Below the pieces are notes generated by a model. The model was not told the DNA's origin, ran no database searches, and saw only the letters and a program-made list of their open reading frames with translations. Below are positions 43,241-57,690 of a stretch of DNA of 64,000 bases, in pieces. The stretch spans positions 12,550,669-12,614,668 of the forward strand of contig JAJEKV010000013.1 of assembly GCA_021234155.1 (NCBI GenBank). Reading direction: 5' to 3'. Both the position numbers and the translations under genes were made by a program. Source of the stretch: Isoetes taiwanensis. Its lineage: Eukaryota; Streptophyta; Lycopodiopsida; Isoetales; Isoetaceae. Position 1 is the first letter of the stretch, and the number at the start of each line of letters is the position of its first letter.

Positions 43241-45213
43241 CAAACACTAAGGTGCTCGTTAAGTGAATATGATGAGTGTGGGGAATGGTATGGTGCATGG
43301 TTTGATGTGGTATACACATCCTAACAGTTTAGTGTTCATTTCATGCAGATGCTATTGTTCAAGAGGTTTCTGGACCAACATCCAGAAATTAAGATTCGTC
43401 TTCGAGCTTTTGAGAAGCTAAAACCCTGGTTTGTTGTGAAATTGAAGGACTTCAATAGTTCTTTGTTGCATTCAAAGACGCGTGAGGATGCAAATGCTAG
43501 TGGATGGACTCAATGGGATGAGAACCAAACATCCAAGAATTGCACTTGCACCTGCGATGTTTGTAGATCACATGAACTTGGTCAATGCAGGCACACCAAA
43601 GATAAAATTGCAAGTACAGAAGTTTGTGGAGATCTATATTGTGTCCAAAGAGTGAATTAGATGAGTTTCACAAGAAGGCGTGCATCGCAGAAATTGTGAG
43701 TCGTGTGGAATCAAGAAGTTTCAGACACTGTCCCCATGGAAGGAAGTGGCAGTAGGAAAGTGAAATGGGAGTACATTGACTATGAAAAAGACAACGTCTC
43801 GAGTTCTGGTAGGAGACTGACTCATCAGTACAATGAGACAGAACCCAAGAAGCTTCTGGATAAACTGAAAGAGCGTCTAAAAATCTTTCCACTGCATAAT
43901 TTCAGGTACCAATGGCAGGCAAAACAGTTTAAGGAGCTTCTGGAGAATCTCCCAGCAGATGCATGTCTCTCGGTAGTGGATTTTGCAGAGAACTATACAT
44001 TCAAGGAACAAGAGGAGGTGCAGTCGATGCGTTGGGTCAATAACCAGATTACCATTTTGGTTCCAATAACATATTAGTATGACTCAGTGGCAGATGAGAT
44101 TATCAAGGAAACACATTACTATGTATCAGATGATAGGGAACACAATACTTTGTTCGTGCAACACTGCTTCATGAAGCACCACGAATATCTGGAGCAGAAA
44201 GGAAGGGTTCCAAACAGACATTATGTGTTTTCAGATGGTGCAGCATCTCAATTCAAGGCTTCTAGACCATTTTACTTTGTGGCTAGGTACACAAACGACA
44301 CTGATGTCTATAATGATGTGGAATTTTTTTGGTTCTAACCACGGGAAAGGTGAACACGATGGCAAAGCTGCTGAGTTGAAGAGATGGTTAAGACAACTGC
44401 AATTAAAATACAGCAGCATAAAATTGGGTAATGCTCATGAAGTGGTAGAAGTTGCCGAAGAGATGTTTACTTGTGGAACATCCGAGTGGATGAACACATC
44501 TGAAACCAGTAAGAGGAAGAATATAAAAAGGTTCTTTTGGGAAGTCAAGGTGGAGGATATAGATAGAAAGAAAGCATGGGGTGCAGAAAGGATTTTGGAC
44601 ACTAGGCGCATCCATTGTGTACATGCATTCAATCTCACGAATCTCCCGTGCGCTTGCAACGAGGGAACTTTCATGCTTCGCAGCCTACCGCTTGGATGGC
44701 ATGTGGGGCGGTTGTGTGAACAAGCACTACGTTGATGATTGGAAACTTCAAGTTATTGTACCATCCTCCAATGTGCATGCCGACATTGAGGACCGTAAAT
44801 CCAGCCAGGTCTTTGTTCTCCTCCAATCCCACGATGTTAGCGGAGGCACTTAGAGTTGGTGATAATTTTCTTTGCCGTTGCTCGAAAGGGAATGATGAGG
44901 GTTCTGAATTTTGGATTACGATGTGCACAAAACCAAAATGGATAGTGGAGAAAGACTTCCAACTCAATGGAACATGGTACCTCGCATTGATAGTGTCATA
45001 GAAGGTATGTATTACAAGAAGGGCGCAAGATCAACCGTCGGCTATGATCTTTGCGAAGAAAGACGCCTTAGGCATAGTATTCACAACACGACTGTGCAAT
45101 CGGACTTCACATGCCACCAACAAAACGCCAAAACAGGATCAGTATATAGGTTTGATCCTTTAGATGAGGAGAAAATTTTACGAGAATTTACCCAAGTTCT
45201 TTTTTCTCGATGA

Positions 45214-47030
45214 TGATGAAATGTAAAACTATTCTGTAGTTTTCAGAACTCATGTGAAATCTTGTGCTTCAGCTGTGAAAATGAGTTTGTCTTGATTTCT
45301 TTTGAAGATTTGAATTCTTCTGAAACACTTGATTCCTTTGTTTGTGAGATGAATTGAATATGAATTTTCATTGAAATGAATCGAGGTTACAATAATAATT
45401 ATTATCCTATTATTTAAATTTGGTTTTTCTGATGTGTGGAAAACTTTTACATTTTTGTTCCGGCAAATGGTATGCCTATGATTTGCTATGATTTTGCTTC
45501 ATTTCGGCTGCTCCAAAAAAATTTCCGATTGCCAAAAATTAAAATGTCCATCGAGTTGTGTTTTTTAGGTCCGTTTTTTGGATTTGGGTATTCGGCATAT
45601 CTTCCACAAGATTTTCAATCCGCAAAACCTTGGAGAAGCTTTCGGCATGGACAACATCTGTCTGCCTGCCACATGCATTAGACGAATCCATTTGGGCTGT
45701 TCTATCTTATCCGGTGCTGCCGAGCATTTGTGGCTTTCCGATTTCTGATGCAATTTGATTTTTTGCAGCAGTTGCTTTCTTCTGCAAATATACTGGAGCG
45801 TGGAGCGTGGGTTTGGAGATCCCGCTGTGATTTGGCTGTATATGGGCTTCGATTTGGCAACAAGATGTGGATAAGATTTATTTAAAAAGTGATTTCGTCA
45901 AGACTCCTTAGGTTTGCATGGAGGTTTGGCTGTACAGCGACAATCATGTGTTTTCATCAGGTAAATGCATGCATTCCCATATGTATCATTCTTTTATTGT
46001 TAGAGTCTGATGTTTCCATGGATTTTGCACAAGAATAGGCACAGATGTTTTATAATCTCCTTCGACTGTTTTTCAGAAGCATTTGTTCCAATGCCTATGT
46101 TCCAATGTCACGTAGATTATCTTGGAAATTCAACCTTATGTACTCAATGGATTTCTTTGCTAAATTTGTTGGCAGATGTGCAGCTTCTGATTGCTTGAAA
46201 AAATCGTAACATGTAGGTGATTTAGTAGGAACGTTGGAAGACTTGCTCATGGGCGACAGTGGCAATGGCATCACCACACTAATTTCGTGAGTTTCATTTC
46301 CTAGCACTGCTCTTTCTCCTTTTCCTCCGTCTTGGTGATCTGTAGAGTAGGCCATGGTGCTGTGCATAGCTTATAGTTTCGTGCCATTACAAGTTTCTTT
46401 GTTGCTTAGATAGAGCTCCTCAACTAGACTCTGCAACCAAGTAGCATAAATCTATATTGTAACTAGTAATGGTGCCCAGCGTTGCTGGGCATACTTTGGG
46501 AGGTTGTAAATGTTTTAGCCACAATGAGAAAAGTGTGCAGTATATTTGTACCTTTTTATTATAACGAAAACTTTCCAAAGGTTTAAGAACGTTTAAGAAG
46601 CCTATCTCCTTCATGTTAGATGGTTTTGCATCAGTATCTCTGAGAGCTTTGAGTAGAACATTGTGATGCTTGTTCTTAGCAATTTTGAGTGGAAGTAAAA
46701 TGTTAATCTATGCAGGTTTGAGGTGAGGTTATAGTCAAAGTCTCTATGAGGTGGCGAGGAGTTCCAAGGTGTATTCTTCGAGTATCTCTACCAAGTCTTG
46801 ATCGAATCCTGGTTGTTGGCTCCGCATATGTTGGTCATCACTCTCCTGGCTTTCTGCTTGTTGCTCTTCAGTCTCCAGTTGTTCGTCTTCTTCGGTGTGA
46901 TAGGACAACATGACATACATTGTCCAATATCCAATCCTACGGACCTATAGATTGTTGATAAATAACTCAAGTTTTGCTATGTATTTTGTTGTATGTATTT
47001 CGTTGTTTGTGATGTAACAAGGTGACGGAT
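45214..47030. other. Spacer between the two DDE-type elements
   Basis: No gene is supported. AT-rich, with short motif-free frames. I could not find terminal repeats that would delimit either element here. Confidence 0.35.
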
Positions 47031-47060
47031 CAATCGCACTAATGACCTGTAGTGCGATTG
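47031..47060. other. Hairpin with perfect 11-bp arms
   Basis: CAATCGCACTA and TAGTGCGATTG flank an 8-base spacer (ATGACCTG). It sits about 300 bp left of the first GCGC palindrome and may mark, or lie near, the left end of the large element. Confidence 0.5.
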
Positions 47061-47358
47061 CGTCCAAAAAAGATTCCTTTTTCAAAAAACCCCAAAATTT
47101 GGTACTTTTGGCATATCTTAAGAAAACATTTAGATAAACGGTCCTTTGACCTTAAAAAAAGTGCATTTTTTAGAACAAACAAACAAAGTACAACATTTAT
47201 AATTAAAAGGAGGTTGTTTTTGGTAGTATTTTAAACGCTTTTTCACTTGACCTGGGCGCACGATCACACAAAAACACAATACTAAGAACAATTAGAAGCA
47301 TCAAAGAAACTGCAAAAAAATGATACAAGGCCAAAATATGATGTAAAATAGATAAGAA

Positions 47359-47504
47359 TGTCTATGCGCCATAGACATGCACCCCGCTTTAAACAAGCCA
47401 CATTTTAAAAAAGTCATCATTTAAGTGCAAATAATGATACAAGGGCGTTTTCATCCAAAGTGTAGTTTAAAGAAGAAAGGCATGTCTATGCGCGCATAGA
47501 CATG
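47359..47504. repeat. GCGC palindromes at the left flank
   Basis: 47359-47380 is a near copy with a central base missing (TGTCTATGCGCCATAGACA). 47481-47504 is a perfect 24-bp palindrome, CATGTCTATGCG followed by its reverse complement. Both lie downstream (3') of the methyltransferase gene. Confidence 0.9.
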
Positions 47505-48817
47505 CTCCCCTTTTTTAACAGACGATTTCTTTTTGAAAGTCAATATTTAAAAATAAATGTTATTTTTTTCAGCTTTATAATCGACACACAATTTTTTAAA
47601 TGTCATGGGGACCTCCTTATCTTTAAGGGGGTCATCATCGAAACATTGTGTTCTTCACCGCTGTTCGGATCCGCTTTTCCTCCTCTTCCTCTTCCTCTTC
47701 CGCTTTTTCCACCTCGTGTTCTTTATCTACCACCGCAACAACTCAACATACCCGCTTTGGTGATCGGTGTTGCCCGATGCGGTGCATCCGTGGCTCAACG
47801 CTTATTCCCCGCTTGATCGCCACCGCCCTTCACACCCACTTCTTGTTTCTCATCGTGCAAGTTCATTAAAGAACATATCCTCGACTTAATGAAAGCAACA
47901 CTATCGTAATCATACTCCACCGCAAAACACGCTTTTGACCCTTCCTCAAAGCACATGAAATGGTCGCGTGCGAGCCCGAAAATGCATCCACAACCCAGCC
48001 TCCGGTTGTGAAAACATTTCCGTAAGCCCGCTGATTAGCCGCCGGGCTTCGGGTACGGTTGACAACGCCGACCGTGAACTGGCCGGTCAACTTCGGTAAC
48101 CGCAGGGAGCCGGAAGACATTTCGTAGTCCATTCCCCGTGGTGTTGTAGTGTTGTAAGGTCCCGTGCCTAGTGTGTCGTGGGTAACCGATGTGAATCTGC
48201 TCAAATACGCTTATAAGTCTAGCACCCCACCATGGCCACGGATGTTGGTCTTCACCCCAGAAACAAATGAAAGAAGTCGAGACAATTAGGGACACCAAGT
48301 TTAAAAGAGATGCAGACTTACCATATCGCAGGCTTCTAATCCAAAGATTGCAAGAAGTTCCTTCAAGCTGTTTGAACCAAGCCGGCTTGGTTGGTGGAGT
48401 GAAAGACAACGATCCTCCACAAAGGTGTCAGTGTTTAGCTTTACCACCGCTTGACAAAAGAGTCAAACTCACAGACTTAAAAGGCGCCATCCGTCACCTC
48501 TACCGTCCGCAACTTAAACCCGTAGGGTATGTCAGCAATGATCAAGGAGTAGTCACCGTGTTTCAACACTCGCCTATCTTCACACAATCCCCCGGTAGAC
48601 TTGGTAGAGACAAGTGGGGCCAAATTCATCAAAATTCTCAGCACTCTGGTATAATCGCCTGATCGGCCTCTTGTACCCTTTTCAACTTGGCTCTTTCATC
48701 TTTTGCTTGCTTCACCAAAGTCAAGAAACCTGGTGGTACCGGGTCTTTTTTTCTCTGCAAGATAAAAAGAAAGTGAGTACACTGCAACTCCATGCGTGCA
48801 TGGCAAGGCAGCATCAA

Positions 48818-48966
48818 CTTTGTTGTGCACGCACAACAAAGATTTAGTTTTGTCCATGCGCGCATAGACAAAGCTGAGGTTTTGTCTATGCGCGCATGGA
48901 CAAAACTAAATCTTTGTTATGCGTGCAGAGCAAAGACTCAGCTTTGTCTATGCGCGCATAGACAAA
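48818..48966. repeat. Nested GCGC palindromes in a methyltransferase intron
   Basis: Three copies (about 48851, 48883 and 48942) sit in the intron 48756-49012. The first two also form a larger inverted repeat: AAAGATTTAGTTTTGTCC on the left is matched by GGACAAAACTAAATCTTT on the right. A GTTGTGCACGCACAAC palindrome lies just before them at about 48822. The intron RNA could fold into a multi-branched structure. Confidence 0.9.
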
Positions 48967-51123
48967 TGGTAAGATGCAAGATAAAAAGCAAGCAAATACT
49001 TACCCAGTTAGTAAAATTTGAGGCAAATTGTTTTATTTTCTCATCGGACGAGGAAATAGGGTACAGCTCCTGAACTTTTTCCCAAGTGTCGCAATTTAAA
49101 TGGAGCATTAGTTGTTGCTGACACGTAGCACAATCTTTTTGGCTGCAGTAAACAGTATCAGTACAGGACAAAACCTACAGCAGAAGTGACAGAGTACTCA
49201 CTGTTTAAACTCGTGCTGCATTTCTTCTAAGGTGAACTGCCCGTCGACAACTTTTTGCAGAACCTCGCAAACTTTGTCCATGTTTTTGAGGCCCCGTGAT
49301 TTCCAAGGCATCACACTCATATCCTTTTGTTTGAGGGCTCTCCCTTTTTCTTTTTGTCTCGTGCTTCTTCCCCTTTGTCTTCAAGGTACCGGCCCCGCAT
49401 ACATATCAAAAATTTTCTCCCCGCAGATCCCAAATCAGGGTGCACACACAAAAAAGATTGAGTGTCTATGCGCCGCATGGAGTAAGGTGAGATTCAAACA
49501 CAACAACTAGGGAAACTTACCCTACCGTGCACGAAGGCTAGGCTAGCTGAAACAGATTGTCGATTTAATCAATGAAGTCCCGCATCTTTTTGATCGTAAG
49601 TCAAACAAAGACTCAATTGCACATTGCTCCTTTAAAGCGAGATAAGCCCCCGGATCATCCTTTATGTCTTTCTTTCCGGGTTCTCTCGCCTATAATTATC
49701 ATATTCTCTCGTGGCATAAATTTAATTTTATCCGACAAGCTCATGCTCAACCTCGTAGTCGCTTGTTCACGCTTGGCTCATAGCAAGCAGCTTTTGCTTC
49801 AAAGGCCGCTACACCAACGTAGACGACAGCCAGAGAGATGAGAAGAAGATTGCTTGCTTGAGTTCTTTCCACTCGCCTTTTTGCCTTAAATGTGTGTGTT
49901 CCACCAATCACAATGTACATGTAATTGTCACCTCTTCTTTCTTAAATTCTTCCAAGGTTTTACAAGATTTAGGGGTCGACAATCACTATGTGTGGGGGGA
50001 CAGCTTGCATTCGCCCCGCCCCGATTCTCTCTTTTAAGGCCGCCAGTGGTTCGATAAATCTTTCTTACCTGAACGGCCTGTTACCCCGAGGATCCTTTGG
50101 GCACAACTTCACTCTATCAATCAGAATGCATAATGCCGTGCACCCGCACCTCTTCTCAATGTCCTCCAAAGATTTTGAGGGCCTCGTCCTTGCCCTTTGA
50201 GGCTATCTTCGTGCCGGGTCCTTGGGGCAAGTTACACTTGGAAGACTCCCCTTTTCTCTTCTTCGCCTTCCCCTTGACTTTGAATTCAGGCCCCGTTCCG
50301 GTCCACAAGGCTTGCCTTCCGCCACCACGCCGTTTTTTTTCTTCTTTTTGGCAAATCCAGTTTCTTCCTCCTCCGAACTCTCCGTCTGCTCCACCTCTTT
50401 ATCCGACCGCTCATCTCTCTCTCGCTCTACCCCTTGCTCTACATCCGATCTACCTCCGGCTCTACCTCTGGCTCTTTTCATTTCTCGCTTCACCCACCGC
50501 CTTTGGGTTCAAGAGTGGATCCTTGCACTTAAGCATCAGTTCAGTGTTTCCACAAGATCCCGCAAAAAAAAAGTTAGAAAAACCCTATGCGCCAAGATAG
50601 ACAAACTAAAGTACTTACCTTTTGTTGCTTGAAACAAGCCCAGTATGAATTCTTGGGCTTCTCATTCATGGACATACTCAGTCTAAAAACATCGGGTCAA
50701 CTAAGCACGTGGTGTCTTCTCCCTTTACTGGTGGTGATCGTTATTGTAGCCATGCCGAAAAAGTTGTATTTCGATGATTCTCGCCACACTTCTTAAAATC
50801 TGATCCGGTCAACTTCGACTTTGGCAAGGAAGATTTCGTGGGCAATGTACGATACACATAGTGCCGTGTCCGGGGATATTCACCACCTCTAATGATTAAC
50901 CATTGACAGTTCCTACGTAAGAGAGAACCGCCATCATTCATTCCGGGTCCATGTTTGCAAAGTGGTAAAGGTAGGGGAGCTTCAGGAGCTTGCACATCCC
51001 GAGAAGGCTTTTCGCGCTTTGGGTTTCTTCCTACGTAAATATAAAAGCACAACAGTCGAAAAAATAAAGAATGCTACAAAAACAAACCGAGACTAAGTAA
51101 AGAGTGAAAACAAAAACATAATA

Positions 51124-51432
51124 AACCTATACGCCGATAGACACACTAGGTTGTTGTCTAATGACAAGTAGACAAAATACCTATTGTGTCTATGCGCATA
51201 GACATAAATGGTTTTTGTCTATGCATGCACGCATTAAAAACCTTGGATATCTATGCGAGCATAGACACCTTAAGTTTTTGTCTCTGCGTGCAAGGACAAA
51301 AAGAATTGTGTCTATCTTGCGCGCAAGATAGATAATGGTTTTACCCCAAGCGCGCAAGGACAAAAAGAATTGTGTCTATGCGCCGCATGGAGTAGAAGTT
51401 ATTGTGTCTATGCGCCAAGATAGACACAACAC
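51124..51432. repeat. Row of GCGC palindrome variants in the first methyltransferase intron
   Basis: At least seven variants lie within 310 bp: TATACGCCGATAGAC, TCTATGCGCATAGA, TCTATGCATGCA, TCTATGCGAGCATAGA, CTATCTTGCGCGCAAGATAG (itself a perfect 20-bp palindrome), TATGCGCCGCATGGAG and TCTATGCGCCAAGATAGA. Shared linkers such as GGACAAAAAGAATTGTG show that whole modules were duplicated. Confidence 0.9.
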
Positions 51433-51619
51433 TAGCAACTACCTACATATTTGCCCAAAATACAAAAAAATATACCTAACAAATATCTAAAAAGTAGTGC
51501 AACTAACCTATTTTTCATTTTCCACACAAGCTAACAACATCTAAAAAATGCAACAAACTAATTCTAAAAATCACCATAACTACACTAGAGGCAGGAAAAC
51601 CGTACCTTGAACCTGCCAT

Positions 51620-52154
51620 TTCAGCGAGTGCTATACAGAGTTGTATGGAGATGTTCTGCAAACTTGGGAGAAGAGAACTCGAAGGCGGAGCGAGGCGGAG
51701 CGGCTGGCGCCTAGAAGCAAGGTATCTATGTGAGAAATGACTGCCCGGTCGGCCTATTTATACTTCGTATTCAGAAGTTGCGCTTTTCGTGGAAAGATAC
51801 ATGGACCGTTTATTTTTTTCCCATGGGGTTGCTTATAGTACTATTGCCGTCTATGCGCGCATAGGCAACTGAGTAGACTTATGTTTATTTACTGAACCTG
51901 TGCATGCAAAGTGTTTGTTTAGGCCATCTATGCGCGCACAGGCAACTGAGTAGACTTATGTTTATTTACTGAACCTATGCGTGCATAGTATTTGTTTGCT
52001 AATCCCATGCGTGCTTAGGATTTGTTAAGTGGAATGTATGGGATTTCTGTTGATTTGCCTATGCGCGCATAGGACTTGCTTGTTAGCAACCGTGTCGGCT
52101 TTTTATTCTCGCATAAGTAAGTCTTACACAAGCTGCTTTTGTCTTGCAGCAAAC
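51620..52154. promoter_or_regulatory. Bidirectional promoter region of the candidate transposon
   Basis: The 535 bp separate the two start codons (51619 minus, 52155 plus). They contain TTTATACTTCG-type AT-rich words near 51765 and a tandem pair of about 76 bp at 51848-52000. Each copy carries the palindrome, then GGCAACTGAGTAGACTTATG and TTTATTTACTGAACCT. A further palindrome lies at 52055-52072. A TTTGTCTTGCAG string right before the ATG at 52155 could be a 3' splice site of a leader intron. Divergent genes with protein-binding-like palindromes between them suggest joint control, perhaps by the element's own proteins. That is inference. Confidence 0.45.
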
Positions 52155-53042
52155 ATGTCAGACAGTGATCCATGTTCGCCTGGAAGTCCACCTGACATTT
52201 TTGTTTCGTTACCTGGTGGTAAGTTCTGCTCTCCCTCACCTCCAAAGTACATTACAAACTGTGGCAAGAATCCTCAGCAAGAAATGGAGGAGTCTCCGTC
52301 CCCTGTACATTTGATCCGCCCCTCTTCCACATTTGTCACTCCTTCACCCACTCACATAATACGCCGCCGTAAATTTAGAACTCCTTCACCAGAAACTTTC
52401 CACCAAGGCAAATATTCTCCATCTCCTTCATCGCAGTAATCAAAAATGGGAGGTCCTTCTTTTTTGATACACCTTCTCCTTTTAAGGAGCTCGAACAAAC
52501 ACCGGAGGATATTTCGCTACGCTTAGCGTGATTCCACAACGGCGTAAGGGACCTTCTCCGCGCAGAGGGTTGAAGAGGAAGATATCTCCACGCTGAGAAG
52601 AAAATCAAGGACACTATTTCCACAGTCATTCTCCACCGCAGCTCAACCGAATTAAGTGACGCCGAGGTTCGTGACACCACCAAATTGTCATAACAAGCAG
52701 AGTACCACAAGAGAGCCCTCCTTTGCAAGATCTAGCTTTTAAGAATCCCTACAAAGAAGCCAAAGAGATTTAAAAGGGATCCTTTAAAAAAGTTTTTCGA
52801 CAAAGGTTACGGAACAAGCTCATGGGCTTGAAATACCCGAGGCCTTTAAGGAGGCTAACCCGCCGTCCGTAAAAAATGTTTGCAGTCCTTCACATTTTCT
52901 CGCCATTAGGAACGCAAGGCATAGCTTTCATCAATGACCGTGGGTGACCAGAAGCTTACCCGCTATTAACGCCGCCGTAAGATCTGAGACAACTTTTCTT
53001 ACTACTTGATGAGGAAAACCGCTTTGTCAACTAGCTTTCAAA

Positions 53043-53115
53043 AGCATACATGCCTTAGGTAGCCTAATGGCTAGAGTGCGTAAACGCTTGATTTGAATCC
53101 ACGTATTGATGACTA
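53043..53115 (+). repeat. tRNA-like SINE head within the transposase gene
   Basis: GGTAGCCTAATGGCTAGAG (A-box-like) is followed about 30 bp later by TTGATTTGAATCC (B-box-like), tRNA spacing. The reading frame is lost exactly here and resumes near 53170, so it may be an insertion. The body beyond the promoter boxes was not delimited. Confidence 0.35.
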
Positions 53116-53493
53116 CATCACACCCAAAAAAAAAATTGGCATGTAATCGCTTAGAAGCCGGCTTGGCTTGTGGATTTCTTTGACAAGAATTGCGCGAAAG
53201 GTTGCCAAACAAATCCAGCTTTATCATCTAATGGATAGCTTTTGCAAGAAAGAGGTCTATTCCTTGTACAAAGATCTCTTCCGTGCTTCGACGAAGTTCA
53301 TTTCTTACTCCTACTTCCTTCGGTTGTGGAAGCAGGAATTTAACCTCGTTAGGATTCCGAAGAGACACAGGTTTTCCGTCACAACCTCGTTCTCTTTTTG
53401 AAGGAGAAGAGATCTCCGACTAAGGTTCCCGCAGAGAGAAGTAAGTACCCACGCTCATGTTTACCTACACGTGCACAATCAATGTTTTCACTG

Positions 53494-53660
53494 ATCATGC
53501 GCGCTTAGTCAAAAATCAATCTTGCCTATGCGCGCATAGGGAAGAGTGTTTTTTGTCTATGCGTGCATGGGCAAAGAAACAAGGTTTGCACCAGTTGGTC
53601 TTCATGTCCACTGAAAGCAAAGTGTCGCGGTCTATGCGCCGCATAAGCATAGGACACGCT
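53494..53660. repeat. GCGC palindromes in the transposase intron
   Basis: Four copies or variants (CATGCGCGCTTAG at 53498, CCTATGCGCGCATAGG at about 53525, TCTATGCGTGCATGG at about 53556, TCTATGCGCCGCATAAG at 53631) all fall inside the intron 53442-53710, mirroring their placement in the methyltransferase introns. Confidence 0.9.
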
Positions 53661-55439
53661 TTGGCAAATCTGCTTAAGTAAAACTGACAAAGCTTCTCAT
53701 TTTGTTGCAGATCAAATTTCGCAGCAGCTCCAAGAGCACAGAGAGGCTCAGGCTTTAGAGAGAAGGAAACTTGCGAAGCATCGAAAAAAATCACTGGAGA
53801 AGCCATTACAAAGATATGTCCGTTGTGATTGATGGCATGGATCGTAAAAAGACAAACCTCGCCTCACTTTGTGAATGTTCCTAAAGAGTTACCTGAAGCG
53901 GATTTTTTGAGGTTGCATTTAGTTGGTGCCCTGATTTTTAATGGTGTGGTGGACTGCAGAGTTTACTTGACTTACCCAAACATTCATGGTGATCCTAACC
54001 TTACTGTGACAATTCTTAACAAGATATTGCTGGCAAAAGAAAAGCTACCTCCTGCTTTATGTACAAATCCGGACAATACCACCGTGAGAGAACAAAACCA
54101 GTATTCTTTGCTTTCATCGTGGCTATGCCGGTAGAGCTTGGCATATTTAGGAAGGTTAAAGTGGGCTTTCTTCTAGTGGGTCACACACATGACCGTGATC
54201 GACCGATGTTCACCGCCGCTTTTGAGACTCCGCAGAAAAAGCTTTCGCCTTGACTCCTTGTTGGAAGTGATTGAACAATCTTACAATCCGTAACCTAAGT
54301 TATCGAGGTCTTAGCCGAGACTATCGATTTCCGTGAATTTGTTTTTCAAAAACAGCCTACTTCAGTGTCCTCGCCATCCACTCATAAATAATTTGACATT
54401 TCAAAGATCATGTCAAATTCAAAATTAGCAACGGAAAGCTTGTCTTCAAGGTAAATACTTTGTAACCTCCAAGTCCCGGGCTGCCCTCAACCGTGGTTGG
54501 AGTACCTTAAGTTTATCCCGCATTCTACGTAAATGAAAAGAGCTTTGCAAAGAGCCCCTAAAAAGTTCCATTGACTACACCAAAAAGAATCCAGCCAAGG
54601 ATCCCTTTGTCTCACCGGCCAACATGGAGAAAAACATACGGTTGGGATTTAAGTACTTCAAAGGACGAGACAAACGCTGGTGGGAAGACCGGTTTGAGGT
54701 CATGACAGATTTAACAAAGATCTTGAAGAGCACCGCCTTTAGAGGTTCCCTTTAGATGGCCTTGTAGTCGGCCGTCACAACCTGCTTCAAATTCCACAGA
54801 AAGTGTGCGGATCGACTCCCCAACCGGTGAACAACAAAAGATCCCGACCGGCAAATGTATTTAGGGGCTTAGAAAAGCAAGAAAAAGAAAGTCGGTCAAA
54901 CTCCAGAAAAGCTTGCAGACTTACAAAAGGACATGTTAATAGCAGTCCCTTCAACAGATGACGATGAGGAGCGTCCTTTCTGGATTGCAAGGGTCAAAGA
55001 TATTACCTACAAAGATAACCTTCCTTCAGTTGTAAAGGTTCACTGGTATGCCACTAAGGCTACAGATCCATATACTGGTAGATATGATCCTCAAGTCGTT
55101 CCTGTCAAGAAGGGAAGGAAAACAATGAACAAGAATCACGTGGATGATGTCGACTTGAATGAAACAGCTGTCCTTGCCTACGACTTTACTTTGAGGGTTG
55201 ATAATAAACTTCGCAGCACAACAGTTACATTGTTGAAGGAACAAATCGAGGACAGCTCGGACGATTAATCGAAGAAACCGAGGAGCCTACTTCGGCCCAG
55301 CTTCTTCAAAGCGAACCAACAGAGGGTCCTAGTAGTGGAGATGAAGAAGGAATCGATGAGTATGACGACGTTCCTGATGAAGCCACTCTCGCCGATTGGC
55401 AGCGCGCTAACCCTGGCAAGAAGCTGCTATTGTAAAGGT

Positions 55440-55865
55440 GTAAATTTGTAGTTACATTCCTGCTTTGCACGCAGAGGCTTTAATATTTTTGTACGTAAGT
55501 TGTTTGAAAAGCAAGCAAGACTTTTGGTATTTGTTGTGATACACTCTTGCTTTGCGTGCAAAGCTTGTGTAAACTTTGTAATGATGTTGAATATTAAACA
55601 AAAAGACCTTTTGGAGTACTTTTTATTTTCATTTTGCTGAAATAATTTTTTTTTAATTTGGACCTGCCTATGCGCCAAGATAGACATTTTATCTTAAAGT
55701 TTGTTCCAGTGCTTGGTGAATGAACCTCAGACAGCCTTCTTTGCAAGCTTTTTAGATCTTAAGTGAAAGAGATTCAAGCTCATACAAATTTTTCGAGTGA
55801 TTTGTATTATTTTTGGTATACCAAAAATTTCTAACTCGACCTGCCTATGCGCCAAGATAGCACCT
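55440..55865. repeat. Right-flank palindrome variants
   Basis: 3' of the transposase stop lie TGCTTTGCACGCAGAGG (about 55462), TGCTTTGCGTGCAAAGC (about 55550) and two copies of CCTATGCGCCAAGATAG (55667 and 55842). This mirrors the left flank and marks the right limit of the palindrome zone. Confidence 0.8.
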
Positions 55866-57690
55866 TTGTCTCCCTGTGTTTTTCTAGGACTACTAACTAA
55901 ACTCAGATTTTTCCTTTTTTGCTAGCTTTTAAAAGTTGTACTAGCTAAGATTCCAACTATTTTTTTTTTGTTGATTTCTTGTCCGTGCTAACTTCCCCAA
56001 GTTTTTTTTTTTTTTTTAGGACACCCAAAAATGGTGCACGGAAAGTAAAAAGAACAGCATTTTTTAATAATTAGACGCCAAAAAGAGCACCTGTTAACTA
56101 AATTTGTAGTCTATTTTTTTAAGTGACCCCCCAAAAGTGGTCGAATTTATGGGAATCTTAGGGAATCTACAAAAGATGCTTTTATTATTGATAATGATGC
56201 CAAGATTTTTGGTACCTAAGTTGTGTTCATTATTGTCTTCCATCTTTGGCCTAAGATAAACAAAAGCATGATGTTAAATTGACCTAGATCCTCCGCAAAA
56301 ATGTCTTATAAGATGCTTTTTGGTACCTAAGTTGTGTTCATTATTGTCTTCCATAAGATAAGGACCTAGATCCTCTGCAAAAAAGGCTTGAGGTCGATAT
56401 AAGGGGCAAAAAAGGGGGTGAAAAGGTTAAAAAGGCAATGAACATTAGAGAGAAAGTTCTTTAAGAAGGAAGCCTTTTATCCACATCACATCATTCCACC
56501 CTTTCTTTTCATACGATCTAACAAATTTACCTATTTCCCGATCTAACAAATTTTTCTATTTCCTTCTCTATATGATGATCTAACAAATTTGTCTATTTCC
56601 TTCTCTATATGATGATATATTTTGCAACACTACTAATAGTGCTGAATTAATCAAGGGTAGTTGTAGTTGTTGGAAAATTATTGAAGTATAATGTTGTAGT
56701 TGTTGGAAAAGAACATGGCATTGAAAAGGACATTGAAATACAATTAAATATTTAAATGTAAAATTGTAATTGTTGGAAAAAAGAACATGGCAATGTAGTT
56801 GAATATGTAGATCAACTGCAATCATTTGTTTGCCACCTTGCATAATTCTTGTAGTTCTAAGCATTCTATAAATCTACCCCAATATAGCATTCCCTCCATG
56901 CAAAGAGATCTTTTTCGATTAAATTTAACCAAAGCCCCGCCAATAAAACAAATTGAGGAACGGTCAATTTCCAAGGAGAAGTTTTAAATTCTCATTACCA
57001 TTGTGCAACCTAGATTTGCTAGAGAAGGGCCATGGTTTTTAGAAAATAATGCAAGCTTGAGTACCGATGTATAAGGAATGGCGTAAAACCATGCATATAT
57101 GGGCCTTCATATTCATATTCTCCACTTTCATGTTATGTTGATAACCTAGACACATACGATTTCACCTATATTAACAAAAGCAATTATGCCACGGCACACT
57201 TGCATCAAATTATTCTATATTGTTCTTGACTTAAATACCAAATTTGTTCATAAACAGTCAAGCTAAGAGTGGGGTGGTTAATTAGCGTTTTGAGGATAAT
57301 GTTCTCCAACTCGATACCAACCTTTTATCAAACTTCTTTAATATTTTACATATTCCAGGTTGTTCAATTCAAGATAATGTATAAGCATTAGAGTTCCCTC
57401 CCAATTTTACCTATACAGAAGTAGAAAGGACTATAAAAACTGATAAACTCAAGGAAACTTATTGAGAATAACTTCTCGAAGATAAATATCCACAGTTGGA
57501 GTGAAACCTCAGATTCTTCAAAGATATCGGATTTATTTGGGTTTTTCAAAGAATCATTACATGCCTTTAATAATGCCTCTTCATGTCTCTCAATAAGATG
57601 TTGTAACTACTTCGGGCAAGGGTCCTTTTGTATCAAGAAAAGGACAACTTTTATACCTGAAAAAGGAGACTATAAAAATTGAACCAAGCC
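55866..57690. other. Spacer with small duplications
   Basis: A GATGCTTTT...TTTGGTACCTAAGTTGTG block followed by TTCATTATTGTCTTCCAT occurs at about 56175-56240 and 56310-56353. GATCTAACAAATTTNNCTATTTCC is repeated three times at 56514-56605. TGTAGTTGTTGGAAAA recurs at 56656-56780. A T-run lies at 56003-56017. No gene. Confidence 0.5.

Follow-up and report, generated by a model that had tools for sequence, protein, structure and literature searches.

A ParB-methyltransferase gene lying opposite a Sola-1 transposase was described in the Ectocarpus element Sola1-1_Ec32 by Dinatale et al. (2025). In the passages drawn on here, that report (PMC12477816) also points to parallels in green and red algae, with references to Iyer 2011 and Petroll 2025, and already puts forward a self-binding, self-modifying hypothesis. 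The parS and NBS sites are 16-bp palindromes (relevant section of PMC7383237), and the Sola superfamily is defined by a 4-bp target site duplication (TSD) and terminal inverted repeats (relevant section of PMC10741241). Here we analyzed 64,000 nucleotides of Isoetes taiwanensis (contig JAJEKV010000013.1, positions 12,550,669 to 12,614,668; “the window”), in which positions 47016-56190 are a decayed copy of a repeated ∼9.2-kb DNA transposon. Its anatomy, selection on its ParB-methyltransferase gene and the clade-specific palindrome arrays outside the tested coding segments are shown here. A first-pass annotation had proposed that this plant DNA transposon carries a ParB-like, beta-class methyltransferase of its own, divergent from a DUF7869 transposase; this is upheld, and the gene is kept by selection. 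Its further claim that the pair was undescribed does not stand as worded, given the Ectocarpus and algal precedents (PMC12477816, as far as drawn on). Among the open-licence papers listed by our searches we found no land-plant or vascular-plant case of the gene pair, no such palindrome arrays and no paper on DUF7869. Because the pair had been reported in Ectocarpus and is known from algae, what seems new is the palindrome arrays and the spread through vascular plants.

We think it somewhat probable that this is a self-marking transposon, with a predicted ParB reader of palindromes and a methyltransferase writer. The element, which occurs in fern contigs and in two or more Isoetes clades, would encode its own sequence-specific DNA-marking protein, consisting of an N-terminal beta domain, a ParB N-domain, a probable helix-turn-helix (HTH) middle domain and a beta-class amino-methyltransferase. 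We infer binding, methylation, N6 specificity and their consequence as follows. The ParB part would bind, as a dimer, the clade-specific palindrome arrays that lie in introns, in the intergenic region and at the ends, and the methyltransferase would then methylate adenine in element DNA. Each family would recognize and mark its own copies, most likely so that these stay expressed, or competent, in the face of host silencing. Features of the window copy are given below; open reading frames (ORFs) of other loci (numbered L) and a homologous protein (P) are named where they support a row.

47016..56190, unstranded: degraded transposon copy lacking the right terminal inverted repeat (homology limits in fetched copies)
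47016..47049, plus: left terminal inverted repeat AACAAGGTGACGGATCAATCGCACTAATGACCTG (other copies carry it, nearly identical and inverted, at their right end)
47483..47502, unstranded: 20-bp perfect palindrome TGTCTATGCGCGCATAGACA
47798..48210, minus: C-terminal part of the methyltransferase with motifs X and I (VVDAFSGS), frameshifted (two frames; open in L022)
48304..48754, minus: N-terminal part of the methyltransferase, broken, including the catalytic motif IADIPYGF (pieces in three frames)
48853..48962, unstranded: palindrome array, four sites, in the gap between methyltransferase and linker exons
49004..49174, minus: linker exon containing a CxxC motif (SQKDCATCQQQLMLHLN; L039 and L043 are similar here)
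49546..50584, minus: broken ParB-like exon, with IGGTHTFKA at 49750-49941 (frame open in L022 and L028; predicted ParB/Noc fold in P0029)
50744..51073, minus: probable N-terminal exon of the ParB-methyltransferase gene (by-eye correspondence to the L037/L038 ORF)
51250..51265, unstranded: palindrome upstream of that probable exon
51850..52115, unstranded: palindrome array, five sites, between the divergent genes
52155..52439, plus: transposase N-terminal exon, start MSDSDPCSPG (window ORF; longer in L018 and L028)
53147..53401, plus: transposase middle part, broken (open in L018)
53496..53569, unstranded: palindrome array, three sites, in an intron-like gap of the transposase
53712..54720 (approximate limits), plus: transposase catalytic part, DUF7869 (VVIDGMD, DNTT, GHTHD), frameshifted (profile match)
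54873..55435 (approximate limits), plus: transposase C-terminal part (continuous with the catalytic part in L011)

Copy searches were run on the 1,658,258,908-base Isoetes taiwanensis assembly (1110 contigs). A 661-base transposase query gave at least 43 matches (best 40 of 1,235 candidates scored), and 20 further copies of the window family were fetched for comparison. Their alignment begins at window positions 47003-47027 in 17 of 20 and stops at 56190 in all eight right ends. The extent first annotated, 47350..55865, lies inside the element and was too narrow, as the left end is at 47016 and the body reaches 56190. The left end begins AACAAGGTGACGGATC, and the terminal inverted repeats are ∼34 bp long. 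All eight fetched right ends carry the inverted form of the left end, which the window copy has lost past 56190. Eight copies have a right end and a left stretch, and the six of these that keep both ends in view all show a 4-bp TSD (TAAG, TAGA, TGTA, ATGC, GTAT and TATG). The Isoetes element thus has both features by which Sola is defined; we class it as a cut-and-paste DNA transposon, Sola-like by TSD and inverted ends, whose transposase is given by Pfam as DUF7869. Left-end comparison showed that the first bases, AACAAGGT, are common to related families and that the inner sequence differs. Methyltransferase-gene DNA lies within the same element in 18 of the 20 fetched copies, and in 17 the alignment continues as far as the left end. 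L024 extends over just part of the gene, and the gene was not seen in the aligned stretch of L012 (cut by an insertion) or L020 (homology stops inside). Pairwise identity among 17 copies and the window is 89-95%, with no close pair.

Some side observations concern the ends and flanks. The left end contains a hairpin at 47032-47061 (CAATCGCACTA...TAGTGCGATTG), and a clade B left end (L040) has one of other sequence (ACGGGAGTG...CACTCCCGT). Just past the lost right end, at 56206-56354, is a direct repeat of 38 bp whose two exact copies are 111 bp apart. L016 and L025, ∼168 kb apart on contig C1007, share an identical 30-bp left flank, which points to duplication of a stretch that includes the element and not to two separate insertions.

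The plus-strand DUF7869 transposase gene seen in the first pass is confirmed by profile matches to a window piece at 53829-54134 (E 4.2e-8, though the gene is broken) and to the L011 ORF (E 3.4e-51). The window methyltransferase gene is a pseudogene with pieces spread over three frames, and its motifs fall in minus-strand pieces at 47869-48210 (VVDAFSGSHA), 48480-48695 (IADIPYGF) and 49750-49941 (IGGTHTFKA). Two window pieces of the methyltransferase region, scanned by profile, gave no methyltransferase match. The 444-aa ORF of L022 matched N6_N4_Mtase (PF01555; E 1.4e-17, residues 122-340), and in it IADIPYG is followed by QKP and FSGSGT, that is, motif IV precedes X and I in beta-class order. 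This profile match and motif order bear out the minus-strand, divergent beta-class N6/N4 methyltransferase. IADIPYGF is kept in L022, L037, L044 and the Azolla-type loci. CcrM was both the nearest solved structure by sequence (6.8e-11) and the best NCBIfam model (an adenine enzyme; 60 bits versus a cut-off of 830), and adenine as the methylated base is our guess from this likeness. We regard it as quite unlikely that the enzyme is catalytically dead, or modifies another target, with the ParB part alone organizing or repressing on the arrays. D[IL]PYG in place of DPPY would fit a dead enzyme, as would one Ginkgo gene model that reads DISQGY and a metagenome protein (P0004) with an altered motif I. 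However, the two Isoetes clades have D, P and Y conserved, as do the fern-type loci and P0004. The two clades also retain FSGSGT, which is present in Ginkgo protein P0040 too and which an apparent intron splits in the fern-type loci. In addition, dN/dS (the ratio of nonsynonymous to synonymous rates) is as low for the methyltransferase exons as for the ParB exon and the transposase.

The predicted structure of P0029, a homologue from Ceratopteris richardii, matches ParB/Noc, and the ParB N-domain fold is present. The ParB assignment rests on this fold because sequence matches were sub-threshold and searches of PDB profiles with ParB alignments returned no ParB match. One PHROG ‘ParB-like partition protein’ family matched five of six members (best 0.017) and a second matched 2 of 43 (best 0.0011); DUF6551 matched three of six (best 0.0029) and 15 of 43 (best 0.0062). 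The profile search suggested at first pass was therefore positive for N6_N4_Mtase and DUF7869 and sub-threshold for ParB by sequence, though the predicted homologue fold matches. From the model, the N-domain is probably followed by an HTH middle domain. A structure for P0005, made from a two-row alignment, was discarded (pLDDT, the predicted local distance difference test, 34). Residues 16-135 of P0029 form an N-terminal beta domain with weak SANTA/PH/RFTS-like structural matches; as modeled, it is possibly a chromatin-binding part.

Among 5.8 billion proteins, four matched the methyltransferase exon, one of them from Ginkgo (presumably, from the Gb_ gene-name prefix). The ParB-exon profile found 39 proteins among 7,999 scored candidates, including P0029 and Ginkgo P0040, and ParB profile A1 added two proteins. 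P0040 holds ParB and methyltransferase parts in one 758-aa protein, in a gene model without the motif IV stretch; in Isoetes and fern loci the two are adjacent same-strand exons. Scanning genome contigs gave five loci (L045-L049), all in one metagenome-assembled genome (MAG) labeled Trichormus. Trichormus/Nostoc azollae lives in the fern Azolla. Because of this, and because the contigs have interrupted genes and one has Gypsy-like polyprotein sequence (by-eye reading), they were taken as fern DNA. A divergent DUF7869 transposase lies beside the gene in L048 (4.2e-49) and L049 (5.2e-48), the two loci that reach far enough; the other three contigs start 117-591 bases before the ParB ORF. Looking for copies in other plants, as the first pass had advised, thus yielded the same divergent pair in fern (Azolla-type) contigs. 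As a side observation, L045-L049 and L050-L057 are plant-like transposon contigs in a cyanobacterial MAG, probably fern-host contamination in species-representative genome sets. Phage records queried with one ParB ORF gave no match and a pattern-limited search of viral contigs gave no confirmed relative, so that acquisition of the methyltransferase from bacteria or phages was not borne out.

Merged Isoetes lists contain at least 124 methyltransferase loci (150 of 177 matches listed) and at least 240 transposase loci (best 40 of 1,235, 150 of 8,928 and 142 of 10,148 candidates scored). Among the matches listed, at least 42 of the 124 have a transposase within 12 kb, 41 of these 42 divergent, where 0.43 would be expected; a separate count against 150 of 9,903 DUF7869 candidates gave at least 18 of 124 paired, 17 divergent. 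Because few of the ∼10,000 transposase candidates were scored, these counts neither prove nor refute an obligatory pair. The 198 of 240 transposase loci with no methyltransferase within 12 kb among the matches listed indicate a transposase family that is probably much wider than this element. They would also suit a captured passenger gene of no benefit to the element, a reading that we consider very improbable: purifying selection between families has already weakened it, and the same divergent layout occurs in fern-type contigs and was also reported in Ectocarpus (PMC12477816, passages drawn on).

Fourteen window sites are within two mismatches of TATGCGCGCATA; every one of them lies within the element, the remaining ∼54.8 kb has none, and 100 shuffles of the element average 0.15 such sites. 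A looser 16-mer scan of the window gave 17 sites inside and 1 outside. A second Isoetes clade (clade B, L040-L043) carries TATTCCGGAATA instead of the TATGCGCGCATA of clade A. At one mismatch or fewer the separation is complete: 21 A loci hold 213 A sites and no B site, and four B loci hold 36 B sites and no A site; L012, L020 and L024, outside these counts, hold 13, 2 and 12 A sites and 0 B. Coding segments, defined by 21 trimmed queries covering neither the linker, the N-terminal exon nor the transposase C-terminus, contain 0 of 223 A sites (22 loci including the window) and 0 of 36 B sites. An untrimmed count, which placed 48 of 197 A sites and 10 of 36 B in ‘coding’ stretches, was rejected because the query ORFs ran into introns. 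The whole Isoetes genome contains 1551 copies of CTATGCGCGCATAG and 3720 of GTATTCCGGAATAC, with 0 for reversed controls (counted regardless of whether they lie in an element with the gene). Fern contigs carry a palindrome of their own, GTCGATGC-N3-GCATCGAC; as inverted repeats of the form GTCGATGC-N(1-4)-GCATCGAC it occurs in 10 places in four of five fern-type loci, with exact 41-bp spacing in L045. Helical phasing was considered and rejected: spacings peak at 41-42 bp and double that, and 10.5 bp is not singled out.

Arrays at 41-42 bp spacing resemble tandem duplications, and the palindromes might be functionless debris of these in an ordinary degenerate repeat region. We find this distinctly improbable, since 0 of 259 sites fall in trimmed coding segments, clade separation is complete, and palindrome cores are identical between families with saturated synonymous sites. 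The palindromes could instead be bound by the transposase or by some other regulator of the element, the ParB-methyltransferase acting elsewhere. En/Spm subterminal motifs, for comparison, are bound by TNPA. Because the two genes are co-inherited, the palindromes track both gene clades and co-vary equally well with that of the transposase, whose intron-like gap also holds sites. We nevertheless judge transposase sites unlikely: the terminal repeats, where these would be expected, lack the palindrome (read from end sequences), the palindromes are spread throughout the element, and the other element protein has a predicted ParB-type fold, known relatives of which bind palindromes.

The ParB-methyltransferase gene is under purifying selection between families. 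Between-family NG86 dN/dS was 0.02-0.36 where dS was computable; saturation left many pairs without a ratio, and dS exceeded 1.5 in several of the rest, so that values are rough. For ParB the ratio was 0.09 (L040/L041), 0.24 (L039/L044) and up to 0.36 (L038/L041); it was 0.09-0.29 for the methyltransferase N part, 0.02-0.22 for the C part and 0.06-0.11 for the transposase. Pairs of window-family copies ranged from 0.24 to 1.19, and the values for L037/L038 were 0.57 (ParB), 0.27 (methyltransferase C part) and 0.51 (transposase), as copies in decay would be expected to show. In 18 aligned rows, C-to-T changes from the majority base amounted to 7.0% at CG, 7.6% at CHG and 1.9% at CHH, a signature suggesting that old copies were probably cytosine-methylated at some time by plant cytosine methyltransferases. 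In the same alignment, palindrome cores showed CpG decay at 45/820 versus 644/9056 elsewhere and A-to-G at 8/869 versus 1030/38763. Note that this difference may be a selection effect, because the cores were chosen from the majority row.

Several points weigh against a self-marking transposon. The marking system, if active, failed to shield old copies from host methylation in the long term. Motif IV is D[IL]PYG and not canonical DPPY or SPPY in the Isoetes and fern-type loci shown, and the nucleotide motif is GG[STN]H[ST] in aligned members and GGCHS in Ginkgo, not the GERR-type CTP motif of ParB/Noc. Structural alignments of the HTH half reach residue ∼495 at a root-mean-square deviation of 5-14 Å, with domains probably shifted. 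Azolla-type loci contain 0 A- or B-type palindromes, and L047, whose contig begins just upstream of the gene, lacks the Azolla-type repeat as well. Half-sites GTCTATGC, GTGTATTC and GTCGATGC agree at five of eight positions (probability 4.5e-5 for three random octamers), a likeness (GTNNATNC) that was aligned post hoc, with register and frame picked after viewing. Finally, 82 of the 124 methyltransferase loci have no transposase within 12 kb among the matches listed, and the fetched L040 stretch shows no DUF7869 ORF.

Upstream of the element, at 43700-44735 on the plus strand, is a second transposase-like ORF set (SDGAASQFK...), of which 86-aa and 125-aa pieces gave no DUF7869 match.

In its widest form, the self-marking reading would have vascular-plant transposons carry a self-contained parS-ParB-methyltransferase system, in which clade-specific palindromic addresses scattered through the non-coding parts, a co-switched ParB reader and a fused adenine writer make up an anti-silencing or copy-identity code; we hold the case for this to be evenly balanced. 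If true, plants would gain an enzyme-based source of targeted N6-methyladenine (6mA) or N4-methylcytosine (4mC) at defined DNA addresses, and disputed 6mA/4mC in plant DNA would become testable at named sites. It would also be a second, unrelated case of the VANC principle, in which a transposon evolves a DNA address of its own along with the protein that reads it.

Among known systems, N4CMT of bdelloid rotifers is likewise a PF01555 beta-class enzyme in a eukaryote and tied to transposons; unlike the enzyme described here it is, in the relevant part of PMC8885841, a host gene with a chromodomain and an SPPY motif that acts in silencing transposons and is not element-borne. Bacterial ParB-parS and Noc-NBS share the predicted fold, probably with the HTH domain, and palindromes of similar length, whereas here there is a methyltransferase fusion in a eukaryotic transposon and the motif GG[STNC]H[ST] (PMC7383237, section used). 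Sola1-1_Ec32 is also a DNA transposon in which one gene, combining ParB-like and N4/N6 methyltransferase parts, is encoded on the other strand from the transposase. It is a 21.5-kb element of a brown alga, whereas ours is ∼9.2 kb, occurs in vascular plants and has a DUF7869 transposase, and the palindrome arrays described here are not mentioned for it in the passages drawn on (PMC12477816). VANC of Arabidopsis VANDAL elements is likened for its logic only: in the portions of PMC5735166 used, its motifs are not palindromes, no ParB or methyltransferase part is mentioned and its effect is loss of DNA methylation. As here, however, an element-encoded protein accompanies family-specific arrays of short motifs in introns and in intergenic and terminal non-coding parts, and motif and protein change together (Hosaka et al. 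2017, PMC5735166).

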